DNA from: Verrucomicrobiales bacterium
GTDB taxonomy: Bacteria > Verrucomicrobiota > Verrucomicrobiia > Limisphaerales > CANJXF01
Assembly (NCBI GenBank): GCA_947478865.1
Contig: CANJXF010000005.1
Coordinates: forward strand, 73,846-116,152
DNA length: 42,307 nucleotides
Direction: 5' to 3'
The translations under genes and the position numbers were made by a program. Under the pieces are notes generated by a model that saw nothing but the letters and a program-made list of their open reading frames with translations, ran no database searches and was not told where the DNA came from. Each line of letters starts with the position of its first letter. The stretch's first letter is position 1. Shown here one piece after another: positions 20,504 to 39,874 of the stretch.

Positions 20504-22003
20504 ATGAAGAAATTGAGATTCGAGATTTTTATACGCACAGGTGTGTTCGTAATCCTGGTTTTGTTTTGCTGGTCGTTTCTAGCCGAGGCGCAGACGAACA
20601 GCGCTTCGCCGGCGATTGTTATTAAAAGTCCGGAGAATCATTCCAAATTCCGGGAAGGCGCCGAGATTGAATTCGCTCTGGAAATTTCCCCTGCACAAAC
20701 GAATTACCAAAGCATCCAGTTCTTTGAGGACAACAAACCTTTGTCGGTGGTGAGCAACGGTCCGCGCGCGTTTGTCTGGCAAAATGCGCCGCGCGGCAGC
20801 CATGCGGTCATGGCCAAGCTGATCTATCCGGATCGCCGGACCGAAAACTCCACCCCTGTCAGCCTTCGCGTCAACAACGCGGCATTGACCTTCGGATTGG
20901 ACAAGCTGGATTTTCTGACGACCTCGGTGCTCCGCATTCCGCTGTGGCAATACTGCGCGTCGTTCATTTACATATTCCTGGCTTTTTACATTTCCAAAGC
21001 GATCGACTACGCGTTTCGTTTCTGGCTGAAAAAGTGGGCCGCGAAAACGGAGACACAATTTGACGACCTGCTGCTCGAGTTGCTCCACGGGCCGGTCAAA
21101 GTCATCGTATTTGTCATCTTTCTATTCATCGGGCTGGATCTTTACGATTGGCCGCCGCTTCTCGAGGGCATTCTCGACAAGGGCTTCCGCATCATCTTCG
21201 CCTTTTCCGTTACATACACGGCGCTCAAAGCCGTGGACATGATGATGAACTATTGGAAGGAACGTTCGGCGGGAACGGCCGACGTTCACCTCGACGCGCA
21301 TTTGTTCCCGATTGTCAGCAAGACTCTGAAGGTATTTATCGTCGTGATCGCGATTCTGGTGACGTGGCAAAACCTTTCCGAGAAACCAATCACAGCCATT
21401 CTCGCTTCATTGTCCATCGGCGGCCTGGCCATTGGCCTGGCCGCGCAAGATACGATTGCCAATTTCTTCGGCGCGGTCGTTGTCTTCGTTGATAAGCCGT
21501 TCCGCATTGGCGACACGATCAAATTAACCGACGTCGAAGGCGTGGTGGAAATGATTGGCCTGCGCAGCACGCGCGTTCGCAATCTCGACGGTCACCTCAT
21601 CACGGTCCCGAATAAAACCATGGGCAACGCGACGATTACGAACATCACGAGCCGACCCAATATCAAATCGCAAACCAACATCGGCCTGACCTACGACACC
21701 ACCTCGGAGAAATTAAGCCGGGCCCTGGTTTTGCTGGAAGAAATCTACAAAGCCCATCCGATGACCCACGATGTTTTGATCGCGTTCAACAAGTTCGCTG
21801 ACTCCGCGCTGAACATCCAGGTTGTGCACTGGTGGAAATCGACGAATCCGCGGGAGCAACTTCTCGGGATGCAGGAGTTGAATCTCGCTGTGAAGAAACG
21901 TTTCGACGAAGAAGGCATCACCTTCGCCTTCCCAAGCCAAACCGTCTATTTGAAACAAGATTCCGATTGGCGAATCGCGGACCATGAAAAGCGGAACGGA
22001 TGA
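20504..22003 (+). CDS. MscS-family mechanosensitive channel with N-terminal Ig-like domain
   Basis: 499 residues. A signal peptide (about 1-29, ending FLAEAQ) is followed by an extracytoplasmic Ig-like domain near residues 35-124 (IVIKSPENHSKFREGAEIEF, IQFFEDNKPLSV, HAVMAKLIYPD). Membrane helices lie near 148-165, 198-214, 228-247 and 272-288, then the pore helix with the Gly/Ala pattern LASLSIGGLAIGLAAQDTIA (300-319). The MscS beta domain follows: VVFVDKPFRIGDTIKL and ITVPNKTMGNATITN, with a C-terminal alpha/beta region to about 485. Such channels release solutes at hypo-osmotic shock. The Ig-like head is an unusual addition that could bind wall or outer-membrane material. Confidence 0.9.
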   Translation: MKKLRFEIFIRTGVFVILVLFCWSFLAEAQTNSASPAIVIKSPENHSKFREGAEIEFALEISPAQTNYQSIQFFEDNKPLSVVSNGPRAFVWQNAPRGSHAVMAKLIYPDRRTENSTPVSLRVNNAALTFGLDKLDFLTTSVLRIPLWQYCASFIYIFLAFYISKAIDYAFRFWLKKWAAKTETQFDDLLLELLHGPVKVIVFVIFLFIGLDLYDWPPLLEGILDKGFRIIFAFSVTYTALKAVDMMMNYWKERSAGTADVHLDAHLFPIVSKTLKVFIVVIAILVTWQNLSEKPITAILASLSIGGLAIGLAAQDTIANFFGAVVVFVDKPFRIGDTIKLTDVEGVVEMIGLRSTRVRNLDGHLITVPNKTMGNATITNITSRPNIKSQTNIGLTYDTTSEKLSRALVLLEEIYKAHPMTHDVLIAFNKFADSALNIQVVHWWKSTNPREQLLGMQELNLAVKKRFDEEGITFAFPSQTVYLKQDSDWRIADHEKRNG

Positions 22004-23648: not shown

Positions 23649-23704
23649 GGGATTAAATTTCTTTCTTCGAACGGCTGCGCTATAAAAACGGCGTGGAAAA
23701 AAGC

Positions 23705-25231
23705 ATGAACTATACTTTGCGTCTTCGCGGGCTGATCTTCGCTTTCGCGTTCACAGCGCTCTGCATTTTCGCGGCGCCGGTCACCACCAACCAAGCGCCG
23801 GAAACGTTCTCGGAATTTCAGGCTCGGCTCGAAAAAGTGGCAACCCACCCGCGTTTTTCGGCGGCGATGCTCGGCGTGAAAATCGAATCCCTGGACACGG
23901 GGAAAGTTATTTTCGAAAAAAACGCGGAGAAGCTGTTGAAGCCCGCTTCAAACGGAAAGATGTACACCGGCGCGCTTGCCTTGGATCGGCTGGGTCCCAA
24001 CTTCAAAATTAGAACATCTTTTTATGCGTCATCAAAGCCGGACGTCGCGGGAAAATTGACGTGCGATCTGATTATTTATGGGCGGGGAGATCCTTCGTTT
24101 TCGCATCGATTTCACGACGGAAATTACAAAACCGCCATCGAACAACTCGCCAACGCGGTCGTGGCGGCCGGAATCAAAAGCGTGCAGGGCGATTTGGTCG
24201 GCGACGAAAGTTTTTTCCGCGGAACCCGATTCGGCGTCGGATGGAGCGCGGACGATTTGCAGTATTATTATGGAGCAGAAGTTTCCGCCCTGACGTTGCA
24301 GGAGAACACCGTTGATCTCGTTTTCAAACCGGGCTCCGCCGTGGGTCAACCGGTGAAGATTCTCATGAAACCGGAGACCGGTTATCTCACGTTCGAAAAC
24401 CGCACGCGAACCGTCGAAAAGGGCGGCAAACGCGGCATTGATGTCTATCGGCCGATCGATAGCAACGTTGTTTACCTCCATGGAACGCTGCCTTTGGACG
24501 ATGCTGGCGCGGACGACGCCGTGGCCGTTTACAACGCGCCGCTTTGGTTTATTTCCACGTTGCGAGACGCCTTGCTGCGGCGTGGCGTGACAATTTCCGG
24601 GAAATTGAAAACGGTCAACTGGCTCGACCGCGAAGTGAACCCGATTGATTTTTCCAAGCTGACTGAGGTTGCGGCGATCGAATCCAGGCCGATCTCCGAA
24701 ATCGAGAAACACATGATGAAGCCGTCGCAGAATTTGTATGCGCACTTACTGCTGCTGCAGGTCGCCGAAAAAGTTCGTACCGCAGAAACCCGGAAGATGA
24801 ATTCCGACGATCTCGGGCTCGCGGAATTGAAAAAGTTTTGCGCGGAAGCGGGCACCGAAAAAGGCGCGGTGCTCATGGAAGAAGGCTCGGGCCTGTCACG
24901 CGGTTGCCTCGTGAAACCGGCTGCGTCCGTTCAACTTTTGAAATACATGCGGAGACATCGCTACGCCGAAACCTTTTATGATTCGTTCCCGATTGCCGGA
25001 GTGGACGGAACCTTGAAGAGCCGCTTCAAAGGAACGGCTGCCGAAAAAAATCTTCGCGCGAAAACGGGAACGATTCGTTACGTGAATTCCATCTCGGGTT
25101 ACGTCACGTCGAAGGCGGGAGAACATCTGGTTTTTTCCATCATGCTCAATGCCTACAACGGAAGCGATGGCCGAGCGCAAATAGATGAAATCGCCGCGAT
25201 GCTGGCTGAGTTGGCGGCAAGGACGCAATAG
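23705..25231 (+). CDS. dacB: D-alanyl-D-alanine carboxypeptidase/endopeptidase (PBP4, S13 family)
   Basis: 508 residues from the ATG at 23705; a GTG at 23693 adds four residues. A signal peptide ends near FAAPVTTNQA. The S13 active-site motifs are SxxK as SNGK (Ser82, Lys85), SxN as SQN (341-343) and KTG (453-455, in AKTGTIRYVNSISGYV). Between the first two lies the usual large S13 insert, including LVGDESFFRGTRFGVGWSADD, where the WSxDD element is a hallmark. It trims or cleaves peptidoglycan cross-links in the periplasm. It converges with the debranching-enzyme gene, 22 bases apart. Confidence 0.93.
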   Translation: MNYTLRLRGLIFAFAFTALCIFAAPVTTNQAPETFSEFQARLEKVATHPRFSAAMLGVKIESLDTGKVIFEKNAEKLLKPASNGKMYTGALALDRLGPNFKIRTSFYASSKPDVAGKLTCDLIIYGRGDPSFSHRFHDGNYKTAIEQLANAVVAAGIKSVQGDLVGDESFFRGTRFGVGWSADDLQYYYGAEVSALTLQENTVDLVFKPGSAVGQPVKILMKPETGYLTFENRTRTVEKGGKRGIDVYRPIDSNVVYLHGTLPLDDAGADDAVAVYNAPLWFISTLRDALLRRGVTISGKLKTVNWLDREVNPIDFSKLTEVAAIESRPISEIEKHMMKPSQNLYAHLLLLQVAEKVRTAETRKMNSDDLGLAELKKFCAEAGTEKGAVLMEEGSGLSRGCLVKPAASVQLLKYMRRHRYAETFYDSFPIAGVDGTLKSRFKGTAAEKNLRAKTGTIRYVNSISGYVTSKAGEHLVFSIMLNAYNGSDGRAQIDEIAAMLAELAARTQ

Positions 25232-29665: not shown

Positions 29666-30724
29666 CTATCCGGCGGACGATAGTTTTTTCTTCAGGCGCT
29701 GGATGCGTTGAAACGATTCATCGATGCGCGCTTCGGAAATTTTTCCGGATTGGACGAGACGCAAAATCAGCTCCATCGCCTTTTCGCCGATATGCGCGTC
29801 GTAATTCATGTTGTTGCCAAAGCAGAGCAAATCGAGCCCTGCTTCGATGCCGAACTCGATCGCGTTTTCCAATCCATAATGGCCCGAGATCGCTCGCATT
29901 TCCATGTCATCGCTGATGATCAATCCGTCGAAGCCCAGCTTGTCGCGCAGAAGTCCCTTCAGGATTTTCTGCGACAGAGTGGCGGGCCGTTCCGCGTCGA
30001 GATGGGCGTTGAACACATGCGCGGTCATGATCACGTCGCAAAGGCCGGATTCAATCAAGCGTTGGAAGGGAATCAATTCGCGCTCGTGCCAGGTCTGGGT
30101 CACGTCCACGAGACCGAGGTGCGTGTCGCCCATCGCGCTGCCGTGGCCGGGAAAATGTTTGGCGCAAATCAGGACGCCATGCTTGCGATGCGCCCTGGCG
30201 AACTCGATGGCGTGCTGCGCGACAATTTCCGGGTCGGAATGGAAGCTGCGTTTTTTTCCCTTGATGATCGGGTTGTCCGGATTCGCATCGAGATCGACGA
30301 CCGGCGCGAGGTTTAAATTGATTCCTGAATCGGCCAGGGTTTTCGCGATCACTTCCGCGTGTTGAAAAGTGAAGGCGAGATCGTTTTTGAGGCCGAGCTC
30401 TTCATGCGAAAGCGTTTCCGGAAAACCGTAGGCCGCCTTGAGCCGATTGACGCGGCCGCCTTCCTGGTCGATGGAAATGAGCAATGGGCTTTGCGCGAAA
30501 CCTTTCAAAGAATCCACCAGCGCCTTCAACTGCGCCGGAGATTTGACATTCCTTCCCTGCAGTTGGGTGTCGGCCATCTCCTGGTCGAAGAAAACGACGC
30601 CGCCGAGATTGCGTTCCGCTGCATCGCGCGCCACCGGATCGCTCGCCTTGACTTCAAATCCGCGAAAACCGACCAGCACCATCTGCCCGATTTTTTGCCG
30701 CAAGGTTGGAGGTTGAATGCTCAT
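29666..30724 (-). CDS. nagZ: Glycoside hydrolase family 3, NagZ-like beta-N-acetylglucosaminidase
   Basis: 352 residues, single GH3 N-terminal barrel as in NagZ. Key motifs are ISIDQEGGRVNRL, LAPVVDLDANPDNPII, the NagZ-defining KHFPGHGSAMGDTHLGL (the Asp-Thr-His supplies the acid/base His), and FDGLIISDDMEM with the nucleophile Asp near residue 273. No signal peptide, fitting cytoplasmic release of GlcNAc from muropeptides in cell-wall recycling. AAAGGA lies nine bases before the ATG. It is upstream of, and probably cotranscribed with, the debranching-enzyme gene. Confidence 0.92.
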   Translation of the reverse strand: MSIQPPTLRQKIGQMVLVGFRGFEVKASDPVARDAAERNLGGVVFFDQEMADTQLQGRNVKSPAQLKALVDSLKGFAQSPLLISIDQEGGRVNRLKAAYGFPETLSHEELGLKNDLAFTFQHAEVIAKTLADSGINLNLAPVVDLDANPDNPIIKGKKRSFHSDPEIVAQHAIEFARAHRKHGVLICAKHFPGHGSAMGDTHLGLVDVTQTWHERELIPFQRLIESGLCDVIMTAHVFNAHLDAERPATLSQKILKGLLRDKLGFDGLIISDDMEMRAISGHYGLENAIEFGIEAGLDLLCFGNNMNYDAHIGEKAMELILRLVQSGKISEARIDESFQRIQRLKKKLSSAG

Positions 30725-33151: not shown

Positions 33152-35512
33152 ATGAAACAAATTTTAAAGAACCACCGGAACGGAATCATGGCGGCTAAAT
33201 CGAGCGGACGCGTTTTCGCCGGACTGCTTTTTCTCTGGATTTTGATGGATGGATTTGGCGCGCTCGCCGCTAATGGACCGACTTCAGTCACTGTAGGATC
33301 TCAGTCTGTTGCGCTCACCTATGGAACCGGCGGCAGCCCAACCTTCACTATCAACGCATCTGGAAACGGCAATCTTAATGTAAATTGGAGCGTGTTATTC
33401 ACAGGGGGAACTCCGGCTGGGGTTTCGACGTCATTTTCGCCCAATCCCAGCCCCGGCAACGGATCATGGAGCTCGACATTAACGGTGACCACTACGGGTT
33501 CCACTCCGGCTGGAGGATTTTCGTTCACGGTAACAAACAACCAAACTGTAACAACAGGTGCAGGCACGTTGACCGTGGGTCAGAAAACGTTGACGCCAAC
33601 TGTTACGCTCAACAACAAAGTCTATGACGGAACGACTGCTGCCACAACGGTAGCCACCCGGTCTCTAAGCGGGATTATCAACAGCGATGATGTCAACCTC
33701 GGCACCAGTGGCACAGTGGGCGTATTCAGCAGCAAAAATGTCGCGGCTTACACCCCCACCGTCAGCGGCCTCAGCCTGAGCGGAACGACTGCGGGCAACT
33801 ACGTACTTTCGACCACATCGGTCACGCCCAGCGCCAGCATCACGGCTAAGGCGCTGACGGTTTCGGGCAGCACGGCGGCGAGCACGATTTATGACGGTAC
33901 GACGACGGCGAAGCTGGGCGGAACGGCGGCGTTCCAAACGGCGGAAGCGGCGGCGGTCGGGACTGGCGGAGACGGCAAGCCTTACACGGGCAATGGCGAT
34001 GTCATTTCAATTGGCGGAACGGCAGTGGGCACGTTGGCGGCGAAAGATGTGGGGACGCAAGCAGTGACGATCACCGGCGTGACGGCGACGGGCACGGGCA
34101 GTGGCAATTACACGGTGACGCAACAAACGGGATTGACGCAGGCCGTCACGCAAAAGGCGCTGACGGTTTCTGGCATCACAGCGGCAAGCACGATTTATGA
34201 CGGAACGACAACGGCGAAGCTGGGCGGGACGGCGGCGTTCCAGGCGACGGAAGCAGCAGGGGCTGGCACCACCAGCGACGGCAAGCCTTACAATGTGGAC
34301 TCGGTGACAGCAGGCGGGACGGCAGCGGGCACGTTGGCGGCGAAGGATGTGGGGACGCAAGCAGTGACGATCACCGGTGTGACGACAGGCGCGGGAGCGG
34401 GCTTTGGTAATTACACGGTGACGCAGCAAACGGGATTGACGCAGGCCATCACACAAAAAGCGCTGACGGCGGTTGGAACCTTGGTGTTTCCGGCGAGCAA
34501 GGTTTACGACGGCACGACGACCGCGACACCCACGTCGGGTTCGGCGGCGTTGCAGACGGCGGAAACCACGGGCAGCGGCAACACGTCGGATGGCAAGCCC
34601 TACACTGGCAATGGGGACGTGGTGAGTCTGACCGGGACGGCCAGTTACAGTTTCAACACGAAGGATGTCGCCACCGCCACGACTGTGACCGCGAGCGGTT
34701 TGTCGCTGACGGGAACCGGCAATGGAAATTACACGCTCACCGCACCGACCTTCTCGGAAACGATCACGGCACGTCCGATCACCGTGACGGCCGCAAGCAA
34801 CACCAAGCCTTACGACGGAACGACCAGCGCGGCGGCGATCCCGTCCGGCAACGCTTTGCAAAACGGCGATGTTATTACCTCGGGTGAGAGCTACGACAAT
34901 GCAAACGTGGGGGCGGCGCACGTTTTGACCCCGGCGACGGTGGTGATCAAGAACAGCGCGCAGACCGTGGTTGAAACGGCCAACTATACGATTTCCACTG
35001 CCACGGTGAACACCGGAACGATCAATCCACAGTCTTTGACGATTTTGCGCCAGACTGGTTTGAATTCAACGAAAGTGCTTAAAAGTGTTTTGGCCGACTT
35101 GGCCGTAGGAGCGACGATCAGTTCCTTCGCAAGCACAAGCGCAGCCGGTGCAACGATCAGCAATGACGGAACATGGGTGTTCTACGCGCCCACCGAGGCC
35201 ATAAATGCGAATGACACGTTCACTTATACCGCCAGTGGAGCAACCGGCACGGTGAACGTGAATATCGATCCCGGCACCACGGCTCAATCTTTGAACATGC
35301 TTCCCTCCACCGGAACTCCTGGCACTGGTGATTTCACGATTCATTTCGCCGGGATTCTCGGGTTTACCTATACCGTCCAATGGGCTCCCACCGTCACGGG
35401 GACTTGGACTACGCTAGGCACCGCCACCGCTGATTCCACAACCGGTCAGGGCAGTTACATCGACCCAGATGGTCACGGCGGCACTGCATTTTATCGAACC
35501 GTTTATCCGTAA
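33152..35512 (+). CDS. Secreted YDG-repeat surface protein
   Basis: 786 residues. A signal peptide ends near FGALAANG; translation may start at ATG 33152 or at ATG 33188, which has GGA eight bases upstream. Residues about 40-145 look Ig-like. Then five YDG-type repeats each begin with YDGT (KVYDGTTAA, TIYDGTTTA twice, KVYDGTTTA, KPYDGTTSA) and end with a GNYxLT/TVT-like strand. After these come a cadherin-like piece (SNDGTWVFYAPTEAINANDT) and a C-terminal beta domain ending GGTAFYRTVYP. YDG repeats occur in large adhesins. No membrane anchor, LPxTG or PEP-CTERM is seen. Composition is Thr/Gly/Ala rich. The P-domain gene follows after 24 bases. Confidence 0.82.
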   Translation: MKQILKNHRNGIMAAKSSGRVFAGLLFLWILMDGFGALAANGPTSVTVGSQSVALTYGTGGSPTFTINASGNGNLNVNWSVLFTGGTPAGVSTSFSPNPSPGNGSWSSTLTVTTTGSTPAGGFSFTVTNNQTVTTGAGTLTVGQKTLTPTVTLNNKVYDGTTAATTVATRSLSGIINSDDVNLGTSGTVGVFSSKNVAAYTPTVSGLSLSGTTAGNYVLSTTSVTPSASITAKALTVSGSTAASTIYDGTTTAKLGGTAAFQTAEAAAVGTGGDGKPYTGNGDVISIGGTAVGTLAAKDVGTQAVTITGVTATGTGSGNYTVTQQTGLTQAVTQKALTVSGITAASTIYDGTTTAKLGGTAAFQATEAAGAGTTSDGKPYNVDSVTAGGTAAGTLAAKDVGTQAVTITGVTTGAGAGFGNYTVTQQTGLTQAITQKALTAVGTLVFPASKVYDGTTTATPTSGSAALQTAETTGSGNTSDGKPYTGNGDVVSLTGTASYSFNTKDVATATTVTASGLSLTGTGNGNYTLTAPTFSETITARPITVTAASNTKPYDGTTSAAAIPSGNALQNGDVITSGESYDNANVGAAHVLTPATVVIKNSAQTVVETANYTISTATVNTGTINPQSLTILRQTGLNSTKVLKSVLADLAVGATISSFASTSAAGATISNDGTWVFYAPTEAINANDTFTYTASGATGTVNVNIDPGTTAQSLNMLPSTGTPGTGDFTIHFAGILGFTYTVQWAPTVTGTWTTLGTATADSTTGQGSYIDPDGHGGTAFYRTVYP
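33851..34459 (+). repeat. Two tandem DNA repeats of 306 and 303 bases inside the YDG gene
   Basis: Both units begin GCGCTGACGGTTTC (33851 and 34157) and a third, divergent unit begins at 34460. They share long near-identical stretches, for instance GATGTGGGGACGCAAGCAG and GTGACGATCACCGG, and end with GGATTGACGCAGGCC. Each encodes one YDG repeat of about 102 residues. The low nucleotide divergence points to recent duplication and a possible site of repeat-number change. Confidence 0.85.
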
Positions 35513-35536: not shown

Positions 35537-36214
35537 ATGAAAATTTTAAAGACTCTCTTGGTTCTCGGAGGATTGGCTGTCGGATTGCATCAGGCTGGCG
35601 CCACTTTAATCTCCACTCACACCTCCGTCGGTCAAACCGTCACGGATAACAACGCCAGCGGTATTGTCAGCACTTTTTTCAATTCAAGCACCTCTATTTC
35701 TTCGATCACCAATGTCCGGGTGAACATCACGATGACCGGAGGATTCAATGGCGACCTTTACGCGTATCTGACCCACGAGGGAGCGACGGCTATTCTGCTC
35801 AACCGGATTGGCACCACCGGCAGCGGCACGTTCGGTTCCTCACAAGATGGAATGAACGTTTGGTTTCAGGACGGAGTTGGTGCCGCGAACGTACATACTA
35901 ACGTAGGAAACCTGGGTGTGGGCTCGACCTACGGATCCGATGGACGCTACGCCAGCCCGACAGATTTAACGGCCGTGAACAACGCTTCTGCGACCCGGAC
36001 GTTGAGTGGCTTCAATGGGCAGCAGGCCTTTGGCACCTGGACCCTGTTTGTGGCGGACCTGAGCGGCGGCGCTGTATCGACTTTGAGCAGTTGGGACCTG
36101 GAAGTCAGCGGCGTGCCCGAGCCCGTGAATGTGGCGCTGATGATTCTCTGCGGCTGCTTCATCATTGGCCATTGCATCAAGTGGATGAAGCGTAAACCCA
36201 CGGCTGCGGCTTAG
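35537..36214 (+). CDS. Exported P-domain protein with PEP-CTERM sorting signal
   Basis: 225 residues. Signal peptide MKILKTLLVLGGLAVGLHQAGA. The body is a proprotein-convertase P-domain: VRVNITMTGGFNGDLYAYLT, LNRIGTTGSGTFGSSQ, and the typical closing FNGQQAFGTWTLFVADLSGG and LSSWDLEVSG. The end is VPEP, a hydrophobic helix (VALMILCGCFIIGHCI) and basic KWMKRK, the PEP-CTERM layout recognised by exosortase. Such proteins are transferred to the outer surface with exopolysaccharide. No protease domain accompanies the P-domain. Lies 24 bases after the YDG gene. The exosortase gene is not in this window. Confidence 0.88.
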   Translation: MKILKTLLVLGGLAVGLHQAGATLISTHTSVGQTVTDNNASGIVSTFFNSSTSISSITNVRVNITMTGGFNGDLYAYLTHEGATAILLNRIGTTGSGTFGSSQDGMNVWFQDGVGAANVHTNVGNLGVGSTYGSDGRYASPTDLTAVNNASATRTLSGFNGQQAFGTWTLFVADLSGGAVSTLSSWDLEVSGVPEPVNVALMILCGCFIIGHCIKWMKRKPTAAA

Positions 36215-37951: not shown

Positions 37952-39874
37952 ATGTCAAACCCCACCAAGCTTGTCGCGCCTGAGATGGCTCCCGCGGACC
38001 TTCAAGCCAAGCCGCGCAGCGCCTGGGCCTGGGTTCCAAGCCTCTATTTCGCGCAAGGCATTCCCTACATCGCGGTAAACACGATGTCTGTGGTCATGTT
38101 CAAGCGACTCGGCATTTCCAACACCGACATCGCGCTCTACACAAGCCTGCTGAACCTGCCGTGGGTCCTGAAACCGCTCTGGAGTCCGTTCGTCGATATT
38201 TTCAAAACGAAACGGCTCTGGATTGTCGCCACGCAATTCCTGCTCGCGCTCGGGCTGATGGGCGCGGGCGCTTCGATCCAGACGGCCGCGTTCTTTTTCA
38301 TGTCGCTCTCCATTTTCTGGGGCATGGCCTTCATCTCCGCGACGCACGACATCGCCGCCGACGGTTTTTACATGCTGAGCTTGAACAAGCACGACCAGAC
38401 GTGGTGGAACGGGATTCGCAGCACCTTTTATCGCATTGCCATGATCGTCGGGAGCGGGCTGCTCATCGTGCTGGCGGGAGTTTTGGAGAGTAAAAACGGT
38501 TTGCCGCCGCTGGAAATTCCATTGCAGGCGCAGCCGGGACTGGAAAGCGCGTCGCGATTCGATCCCGCTTCCATTCCGGCCGTCGCGCCAGCAGGCGAGC
38601 TGCGGCTGGTGGCCCATCCCGCGACGCTGGCGGTCGGCATCACGGAAAAAACGGCCGATGAAGCCGGGGCGGTCATCGATGCCGCCAGGAAATGGAATCG
38701 AGCCCATGGATTCATCGCGGTGGAAAAACCGATGGTGAAAACGGCCGGGGACAGCTCCTGGTGGACGAAACATATTTCCAAACCGCTGGGCGATTTTTTG
38801 CGGGCGACGTTCCCGAAAGAATTAAAAGCCAGGCCGAACGCGGCCGGCAACGTGGGCCTGATTTATTTCACGCTGTCCAAGGAACCGCCGGCGCAAAAGG
38901 AGATCGTGGTCAATTTTGAGCGGAAGAAAAGCGGGCGGGAATACCTCGGGTTCAGCGCGGGCGATCGCGGATTCAAACTCGTGGAGGGCGAACGGTTTGT
39001 TTTCAATTCCACGAACTGGAACCAGCCGTTCGCGGCGGTGGTGCAGCTGGATCCCAAGTTGAAACAGAGCTCCTCGGTCATCTTCGCTTCGCGCGCGGGG
39101 AACATCGCGCTGGCGTGGTCGATCACGCTTTTTCTGCTGGGCGGATTATTTTTGCTCGCCTGCTTCTACCATCAATTCGCCCTGCCCCGGCCGGCGGCGG
39201 ATGTGCCGGTGGGTTCCGGCAAGAATCTCTGGGGCGATTTCTTTGGGACCTTTGGCGCTTTTTTCAAGAAGCCCGGCATCCTGGTCGCCCTCTCGTTTAT
39301 TTTGTTTTATCGGCTGGCCGAGGCGCAGGCGCTGAAGCTGGTCAGCCCGTTTTTGCTCGATGCGCGCGAAGTCGGCGGACTGGGCCTGAGTACGAGCCAG
39401 TTGGGCCTGGCTTACGGCACCTTCGGAATTCTCGCGCTGACCTTCGGCGGAATTTTCGGCGCCATTCTCGCCTCCAGGTATGGATTGAAAAAAATGTTGC
39501 CGATCATGGTCTGCGCCATTCATTTGCCGAACGCGGCGTTTCTTTACCTCGCATTCGTGCAGCCGGAGAATTTTGCGGTGATCAGCGGCTGCATTGCCAT
39601 TGAGCAATTCGGCTACGGCTTCGGCTTTTCCGCCTACATGCTTTACCTGCTGTATTTTGCAGATGGCCCCAATAAAACGGCGCACTACGCGATCTGCACC
39701 GGATTCATGGCGCTCGGCATCATGCTGCCGGGAATGTGGAGTGGCTGGCTGCAAGACCTGGTCGGTTACAAGAACTTCTTCGCCTGGATCATGCTCTCGA
39801 CGATCCCCGGGTTTCTCGTGGCGTTCCTGATCAAGGTGGACCCGCAGTTCGGAAAAAAAGCGGCCAGGGAATGA
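37952..39874 (+). CDS. MFS (AmpG-like) transporter with large soluble insert
   Basis: 640 residues from ATG 37952 (MSNPTKLVAPEM); a GTG at 37883 would add 23 unlikely residues. The N-terminal membrane half begins WVPSLYFAQGIPYIAVNTMS and has the AmpG-like loop LPWVLKPLWSPFVDIFKTKR, then ATHDIAADGFYML. After the helix ending LLIVLAGVLE there is a soluble region of about 200 residues (about 180-382, no hydrophobic segment) before membrane helices resume at IALAWSITLFLLGGLFLLAC. The C-terminal half includes ISGCIAIEQFGYGFGFSAYM and ICTGFMALGIMLPG. AmpG imports muropeptides; this substrate is not known. nagZ and dacB elsewhere in the window make a wall-recycling role attractive but unproven. Confidence 0.85.
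   Translation: MSNPTKLVAPEMAPADLQAKPRSAWAWVPSLYFAQGIPYIAVNTMSVVMFKRLGISNTDIALYTSLLNLPWVLKPLWSPFVDIFKTKRLWIVATQFLLALGLMGAGASIQTAAFFFMSLSIFWGMAFISATHDIAADGFYMLSLNKHDQTWWNGIRSTFYRIAMIVGSGLLIVLAGVLESKNGLPPLEIPLQAQPGLESASRFDPASIPAVAPAGELRLVAHPATLAVGITEKTADEAGAVIDAARKWNRAHGFIAVEKPMVKTAGDSSWWTKHISKPLGDFLRATFPKELKARPNAAGNVGLIYFTLSKEPPAQKEIVVNFERKKSGREYLGFSAGDRGFKLVEGERFVFNSTNWNQPFAAVVQLDPKLKQSSSVIFASRAGNIALAWSITLFLLGGLFLLACFYHQFALPRPAADVPVGSGKNLWGDFFGTFGAFFKKPGILVALSFILFYRLAEAQALKLVSPFLLDAREVGGLGLSTSQLGLAYGTFGILALTFGGIFGAILASRYGLKKMLPIMVCAIHLPNAAFLYLAFVQPENFAVISGCIAIEQFGYGFGFSAYMLYLLYFADGPNKTAHYAICTGFMALGIMLPGMWSGWLQDLVGYKNFFAWIMLSTIPGFLVAFLIKVDPQFGKKAARE

Follow-up and report, generated by a model that had tools for sequence, protein, structure and literature searches.

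The window, by which we mean the whole 42,307-nucleotide stretch of DNA that was analyzed, contains an intact gene at positions 37952–39874 (+ strand) that is open throughout and encodes a protein of 640 amino acids. Pfam, NCBIfam, AlphaFold and structure comparison mark this protein as an AmpG-like MFS permease with a predicted periplasmic insert. AmpG returns used cell-wall fragments to the bacterial cell; the muropeptides so imported enter wall recycling and in certain bacteria also serve to induce beta-lactamase. Most tests of AmpG have been made in proteobacteria and in T. forsythia. The neighbors of the gene are an M50 peptidase, a Mut7-C protein, a transglutaminase-like gene and endonuclease III, and the Pfam and NCBIfam searches of these neighbors found no wall-recycling gene beside it. 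A preliminary description of the locus had taken NagZ and PBP4 genes elsewhere in the window as a hint of muropeptide uptake; a NagZ-like GH3 gene (29666–30724) and a PBP4-like S13 peptidase gene (23693–25231) are indeed present, but they lie 7 and 13 kb from the permease gene and so are weak evidence. Since its neighbors are not wall-recycling genes, assignment of a substrate to the window gene is drawn from its homology and from the operons in which relatives lie (below). The window also encodes a 786 amino acid protein with five YDG repeat stretches (33152–35512, + strand) and a small P-domain protein (35537–36214, + strand) whose C-terminus resembles a PEP-CTERM sorting tail in having VPEP, then a hydrophobic stretch and finally basic residues.

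The carrier and its relation to AmpG

The only carrier families in Pfam that match the 640 amino acid protein at E values up to 0.001 are MFS_1, BT1 and Acatn; the POT family profile does not match it at that threshold. NCBIfam ranks AmpG models first, with TIGR00901 at 146.3 bits, and because this score is below the curated cut-off of 350 we name the protein AmpG-like and not a TIGR00901 member. The AmpG of a near relative of T. forsythia (locus L156) likewise falls under that cut-off, at 174.3 bits, and thus TIGR00901 under-covers this clade. RhtX/FptX siderophore carriers rank second in NCBIfam (68 bits). The best stretches of the Pfam and NCBIfam carrier matches end or begin near residues 179 and 375–386.

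The full-length AlphaFold model was built from a 70-row alignment (A4: the window protein and 69 of the 80 loci of the named-genome scan described below) and has a pLDDT of 90.5, a pTM of 0.90 and 12 transmembrane (TM) helices. Its secondary structure places TM1–TM5 at residues 28–181 (38033–38494, + strand), TM6 at residues 385–410 (39104–39181, + strand) and TM7–TM12 at residues 443–626 (39278–39829, + strand). Among the 1000 chains ranked highest by Foldseek, the top structural match is AmpG 8zgz (VIA-align Z 44.8, rmsd 2.3 Å, 384 residues aligned) and the second is AmpG 8zke bound to GlcNAc-1,6-anhMurNAc (Z 41.7); SotB comes next after the AmpG chains (Z 37.9). The protein also matches the permease 9c3f by sequence (E 4e-19). 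The solved AmpG proteins (8zgz, 8zke and 9c3f) and the window protein have in common the MFS fold and sequence homology in both halves, although they are only 22–23% identical over the structural alignment. The aspartate of SASQDI in the solved AmpG chains aligns with D133 of SATHDI in the window protein. Unlike the window protein, the solved chains have no domain at the site of the insert, and residues 175 and 387 of the query align to neighboring chain residues. With 8zgz and 8zke leading the structural matches, the proposal of the preliminary description that the gene encodes an AmpG-like MFS carrier is supported.

A predicted periplasmic domain between TM5 and TM6

In the AlphaFold model about 200 soluble residues lie between TM5 (146–181) and TM6 (385–410); the TM5 helix is unbroken to residue 181, where the insert starts, and TM6 begins at residue 385 straight after it. 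AlphaFold, the charge pattern and homologous inserts together delimit the putative periplasmic domain as residues 182–384 (38495–39103, + strand). The preliminary description had set it between the two membrane halves, but the model places it within the N-terminal half. Its observation that the stretch interrupts the membrane bundle and has no hydrophobic segment holds: a 19-residue Kyte-Doolittle scan found no hydrophobic window in residues 183–383, where the highest mean is 1.02; outside this stretch, those segments whose mean exceeds 1.4 range from 1.43 to 2.28.

Lysine and arginine make up 16–41% of six of the seven predicted cytoplasmic stretches in the 70 rows (the seventh, TM4–5, has 4%), and 0–6% of the short periplasmic loops. 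TM5 runs from inside to outside, in agreement with this positive-inside pattern, and the insert is therefore predicted to be periplasmic, the side that had been suggested from helix order. The topology and AlphaFold check proposed at that time thus gave a domain that is predicted to be folded and in the periplasm, not a cytoplasmic stretch without a fold.

Within the full-length model the insert has strands at residues 187–194, 219–222 and 226–229, helices at 235–251 and 270–286, and further strands within 301–382. The last of these regions is the C-terminal strand-rich part (38852–39097, + strand), which carries the motif GD.S...EG.R..F...NW..P...Q.D. Modeled alone with an alignment of 41 inserts (A5: the window's own and 40 of 63 listed inserts), the domain has a pLDDT of 87.9 and a pTM of 0.79 and consists of three short strands, two helices and then six strands; the predicted fold is an Ig-like beta-sandwich plus two helices. 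Strongly conserved positions in A5 include L131, G160 and N178-W179. A few relatives have short inserts of 125–141 extra residues (L106, L111, L123, L019 and L026), which are without much of the middle, the part that forms the helices in the window protein, and keep the C-terminal strand-rich end.

Relatives of the inserted domain

The window's insert matches no Pfam family at E values up to 1. Searched at the same threshold, the 41 inserts match 14 families, each in one member only, the best being DUF2124 (E 5.3e-4); no family recurs, and none of these matches was accepted as real. None of the 14 is a carbohydrate-binding family as judged by name, and the Calx-beta profile matches none of the 41 inserts (E up to 1, HMMER filters on). 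A profile of the insert finds three matches among solved chains, the best at only E 0.27. The Foldseek search of the insert alone that had been suggested gave 0 matches at E values up to 0.001, and its top rows, p53-family chains with a TM-score of about 0.1, are meaningless. VIA comparison of the lone insert gives a best Z of 6.3 and a mixture of Ig-like folds (MSP, ASH/HYDIN, Calx-beta and pilus chaperones), among which Calx-beta domains match weakly, at Z 4.6–5.6, level with the MSP, ASH and chaperone folds. These comparisons of a modeled structure would indicate a common fold arrangement and nothing more.

When 16 genomes were searched with the insert profile, the transporter was found in all 11 insert-bearing genomes, some of whose rows had helped to build the profile. 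Beyond transporters the search found six weak stretches, the best of which (E 1.7e-4) is in a 1621 amino acid frame. The C-terminal part of the insert resembles repeats of long proteins of relatives, with E values of 1.7e-4 (genome G238) and 0.134 (G349) and pairwise hhalign probabilities of 92% and 75%, respectively, and the pattern G(D/N)...F...NW is common to both. The long repeat-bearing proteins are probably secreted. Compared with such Calx-beta/Ig-like repeats of long bacterial proteins, to which the likeness is a profile likeness of its C-terminal half, the insert has extra N-terminal strands and helices and sits inside a transporter; we infer that it is an Ig/Calx-beta-like module that was recruited into a carrier. 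A second membrane protein of the window with an added Ig-like domain is an MscS-type channel (20504–22003, + strand), in which a bacterial Ig domain of the Big_7 family lies close to the N-terminus (24.2 bits against a cut-off of 24.1).

Spread and history of the insert

Full-length matches that span the insert are present in eight other genomes of the same order, at 49–67% identity. A survey of the order, the window's own genome included, found a match in 17 of 97 genomes, nine with the insert, seven without it and one a fragment. Across the phylum 58 of 288 genomes have a match; only the 30 best loci of these were fetched, and five of them carry the insert, three in a shorter form with 140–173 extra residues. 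The named-genome scan drew on the best 80 loci among 578 relatives of an insert-bearing query, and so shows range and not prevalence: 67 of these loci have the insert and 13, two Roseateles among them, do not. Within those best 80 loci the insert occurs in Bacteroidota, Ignavibacteriota, Calditrichota, KSB1, Neomarinimicrobiota, Planctomycetota, Rhodothermota and Verrucomicrobiota/Lentisphaerae, as well as in one MAG labeled Caldisericaceae. In a sample of the Tannerellaceae family 46 of 59 genomes match; the match is unbroken across the insert in three and split around it in most others. The spread of the insert-bearing form, which the preliminary description had thought worth following, thus takes in homologous inserts at the same site in several phyla.

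The insert-less junction typically reads LE..TG followed by NIPLAWSITF, and the insert-bearing junction LE..TG, the domain, SG and then NIPLAWSITF; three insert-less Tannerellaceae-family loci (L156, L157 and L163) have 6–19 extra residues left at the site. A tree of the carrier core has 127 rows, 74 with and 53 without the insert, in which the two forms are intermixed; it leaves out the partial genes L089, L107, L113, L116 and L127, and also L054, L068 and L090, which were taken as repeats of genomes already included. The state of the insert changes nine times on this tree, at least seven of the changes being forced by starred branches, and shuffled labels need 41. Members of unlike form can be close in the core (L130, without the insert, is 77% identical to L066, and L157, also without it, is 75% identical to L076). 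Across insert-bearing pairs the identities of core and insert are correlated (Pearson 0.73); the core averages 61% and the insert 29%. A single ancient insertion, passed on vertically and then lost cleanly on repeated occasions, would be the simplest history. Repeated gain is possible, and midpoint parsimony even permits an insert-less root.

Operons of relatives

Relatives in Bacteroidota share a recurrent gene order, namely a Golvesin-type protein, GT2, DUF4922, SpoIID, AmpG, NamZ, a NagX/MurT-like protein, a MurK-like protein, a MurQ-like protein and GH3. Neighbors of the 80 scan loci, whose flanks vary in length, were grouped by single-linkage clustering, with Pfam run on cluster representatives only, and the classes counted were NamZ, GH3, MurQ-like, MurK-like, BadF-type kinase, NagX/MurT-like and SpoIID. 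On this count 50 of the 67 insert-bearing and 11 of the 13 insert-less loci have a wall-sugar or SpoIID gene within seven genes, as do 29 of the 35 insert-bearing loci that are flanked on each side by 4 kb or more. In Dysgonomonas (L078, insert of 193 residues) the order is Golvesin, GT2, DUF4922, SpoIID, AmpG, NamZ, BadF-type kinase and MurQ-like; DUF4922 and GT2 recur in the Bacteroidota AmpG-NamZ operon (L078, L091, L096, L102 and others). No labeled wall-recycling cluster was seen near the Verrucomicrobiota insert-bearing loci L054, L058, L068 and L093.

The operon of T. forsythia provides a comparison with an experimentally tested permease. Extracts of the published account give its order as xanthan lyase, gtf, gtf, lytB, ampG, ybbC, murT, murK and murQ (PMC5388701). 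A near relative of T. forsythia (genome G395, locus L156) has nine genes in matching order with an insert-less AmpG of 433 amino acids; DUF4922 replaces the second gtf, NamZ replaces ybbC and an HGSNAT-type protein replaces murT. Its kinase is identical to the 8oqw chain at 267 of 283 positions, as counted on the alignment, and 8ow9, described in an extract of PMC10465942 as T. forsythia MurK with MurNAc, is almost as similar. According to extracts of two reports, an E. coli ampG ampD strain took up muropeptides again when it had T. forsythia AmpG (PMC5388701, PMC7670621), an E. coli reporter confirmed this AmpG as a permease for muropeptides (PMC5388701), and a T. forsythia ampG deletion did not grow on GlcNAc-MurNAc(-peptides) or GlcNAc-anhMurNAc(-peptides) (PMC7670621). 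This AmpG (Tanf_08365) has the same operon slot as insert-bearing relatives, and its near relative L156 shares one tree with the window protein. The extracts of PMC5388701 predict 12 TM helices for it and do not mention an insert; judging by L156, the insert would be absent from the AmpG of T. forsythia as well.

Muropeptide uptake, which had been thought worth considering for the window gene, is thus plausible because its relatives occupy muropeptide-recycling operons. Both forms hold the slot of an experimentally tested permease, which suggests that the domain is not essential for transport. Co-occurrence gives no signal for SpoIID or NamZ as a docking partner of the domain in these loci; both neighbors occur with either form.

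The window's own genome has NamZ, MurQ and AnmK matches outside the window. In the same order AnmK is found in six of nine insert-bearing and none of seven insert-less genomes (Fisher p 0.011), NamZ in seven of nine and two of seven (p 0.13), and MurQ over its cut-off in six of nine and one of seven (p 0.06); a link between the insert and these enzymes was not counted, as there is one independent pair on the tree. The own-genome MurQ match (G000:C7:5878-6684) contains one in-frame TGA within the matched stretch. NamZ domains of this order occur in open frames that are unusually long, at 788–892 amino acids (G000:C33:1161-1757, G292, G305, G308, G353 and G368), which are perhaps fusions.

Discussion

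Taken jointly, an AmpG-type carrier that imports wall fragments and an accessory periplasmic domain make up an account of the window protein that we regard as likely. The protein would be an inner-membrane permease, presumably proton-driven, that imports peptidoglycan breakdown products, either GlcNAc-anhydroMurNAc or GlcNAc-MurNAc, whether or not peptide is attached; that the substrates are such GlcNAc-(anhydro)MurNAc fragments is suggested by T. forsythia AmpG and the operon context. The domain would be an ancient module that the carrier can do without. Clean losses or gains of it at one site are numerous, with the operon slot of the relatives kept, and so it is probably not what moves the substrate and may instead help to supply it.

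We rank docking of a wall hydrolase first among the possible roles of the domain, then capture, then a part in structure or gating. A periplasmic peptidoglycan hydrolase would dock on the domain next to the entry side of the carrier, a proposal by analogy that we hold tentatively. The more specific form, in which a modular, removable docking domain holds a peptidoglycan-cutting enzyme, such as NamZ, GH3 or a lytic enzyme, where the muropeptide importer opens, we put forward with a little more reserve. In the mammalian peptide carriers PepT1 and PepT2 an extracellular domain is inserted between TM9 and TM10. Like the window protein, these have Ig-like soluble domains set into an MFS carrier on its outer side; unlike it, they belong to the POT family, are mammalian and have two Ig-like lobes. 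Extracts of PMC4597091 report that the Ig-like extracellular domains of PepT1 and PepT2 bind trypsin and are dispensable for transport. It is in the removability of the domain that the analogy would fit our data, and if docking is true the insert would be a separately arisen bacterial counterpart of PepT1/PepT2 with trypsin.

We are more doubtful that the insert is a capture domain, which would bind muropeptides or the peptidoglycan mesh and pass fragments to the carrier. The predicted folded state of the insert and its position in the periplasm on the entry side agree with capture, as do the strongly conserved positions of A5 (L131, G160 and N178-W179), and beta-sandwich modules often bind sugars; however, the insert diverges much faster than the core (mean identities of 29% and 61%), no family that is carbohydrate-binding by name is among the 14 matched by the 41 inserts, and relatives without the insert fill the same slot of the operon. 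It is unlikely that the insert instead stabilizes the protein, sets its oligomeric state or gates the carrier through the TM5/TM6 link. The continuity of the TM5 helix into the start of the insert, with TM6 directly after it, agrees with such a role, but insert-less forms are frequent, and intact insert-less relatives are close to insert-bearing ones in the core (the L130/L066 and L157/L076 pairs at 77% and 75%).

The carrier itself might merely resemble AmpG and move something else, such as a siderophore or a different glycoside; in this direction point the secondary RhtX/FptX matches (68 bits), the AmpG score under its cut-off and a window without wall-recycling neighbors; against this, AmpG has the higher score (146 bits) and is first in the structure ranking, and many relatives are within wall-recycling operons, so that we judge another substrate to be quite improbable. 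A disordered cytoplasmic loop, an assembly or frame artefact, or chance can, as far as prediction goes, be set aside with near certainty; nothing was found in favor of a loop or an artefact, and against these stand pLDDT values of about 88–90, the positive-inside charge pattern and homologous inserts in the same order and in several phyla. Of these readings, docking of a hydrolase on the domain is the one we prefer.

Our literature search on AmpG, which covered mostly papers outside subscription and outside the work on AmpG structures, found no description of this domain. The AmpG-type transporter is already known, and the form of it with this widespread insert, which has no Pfam family, would be new. 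Operons of one kind that hold the carrier either with the module or without it amount to a natural experiment. If the docking idea is true, a docking domain spans the Bacteroidota/Verrucomicrobiota/Planctomycetota side of the tree and couples wall digestion to uptake, and breakdown of the wall and uptake of its fragments would then be physically coupled across much of the bacterial world.
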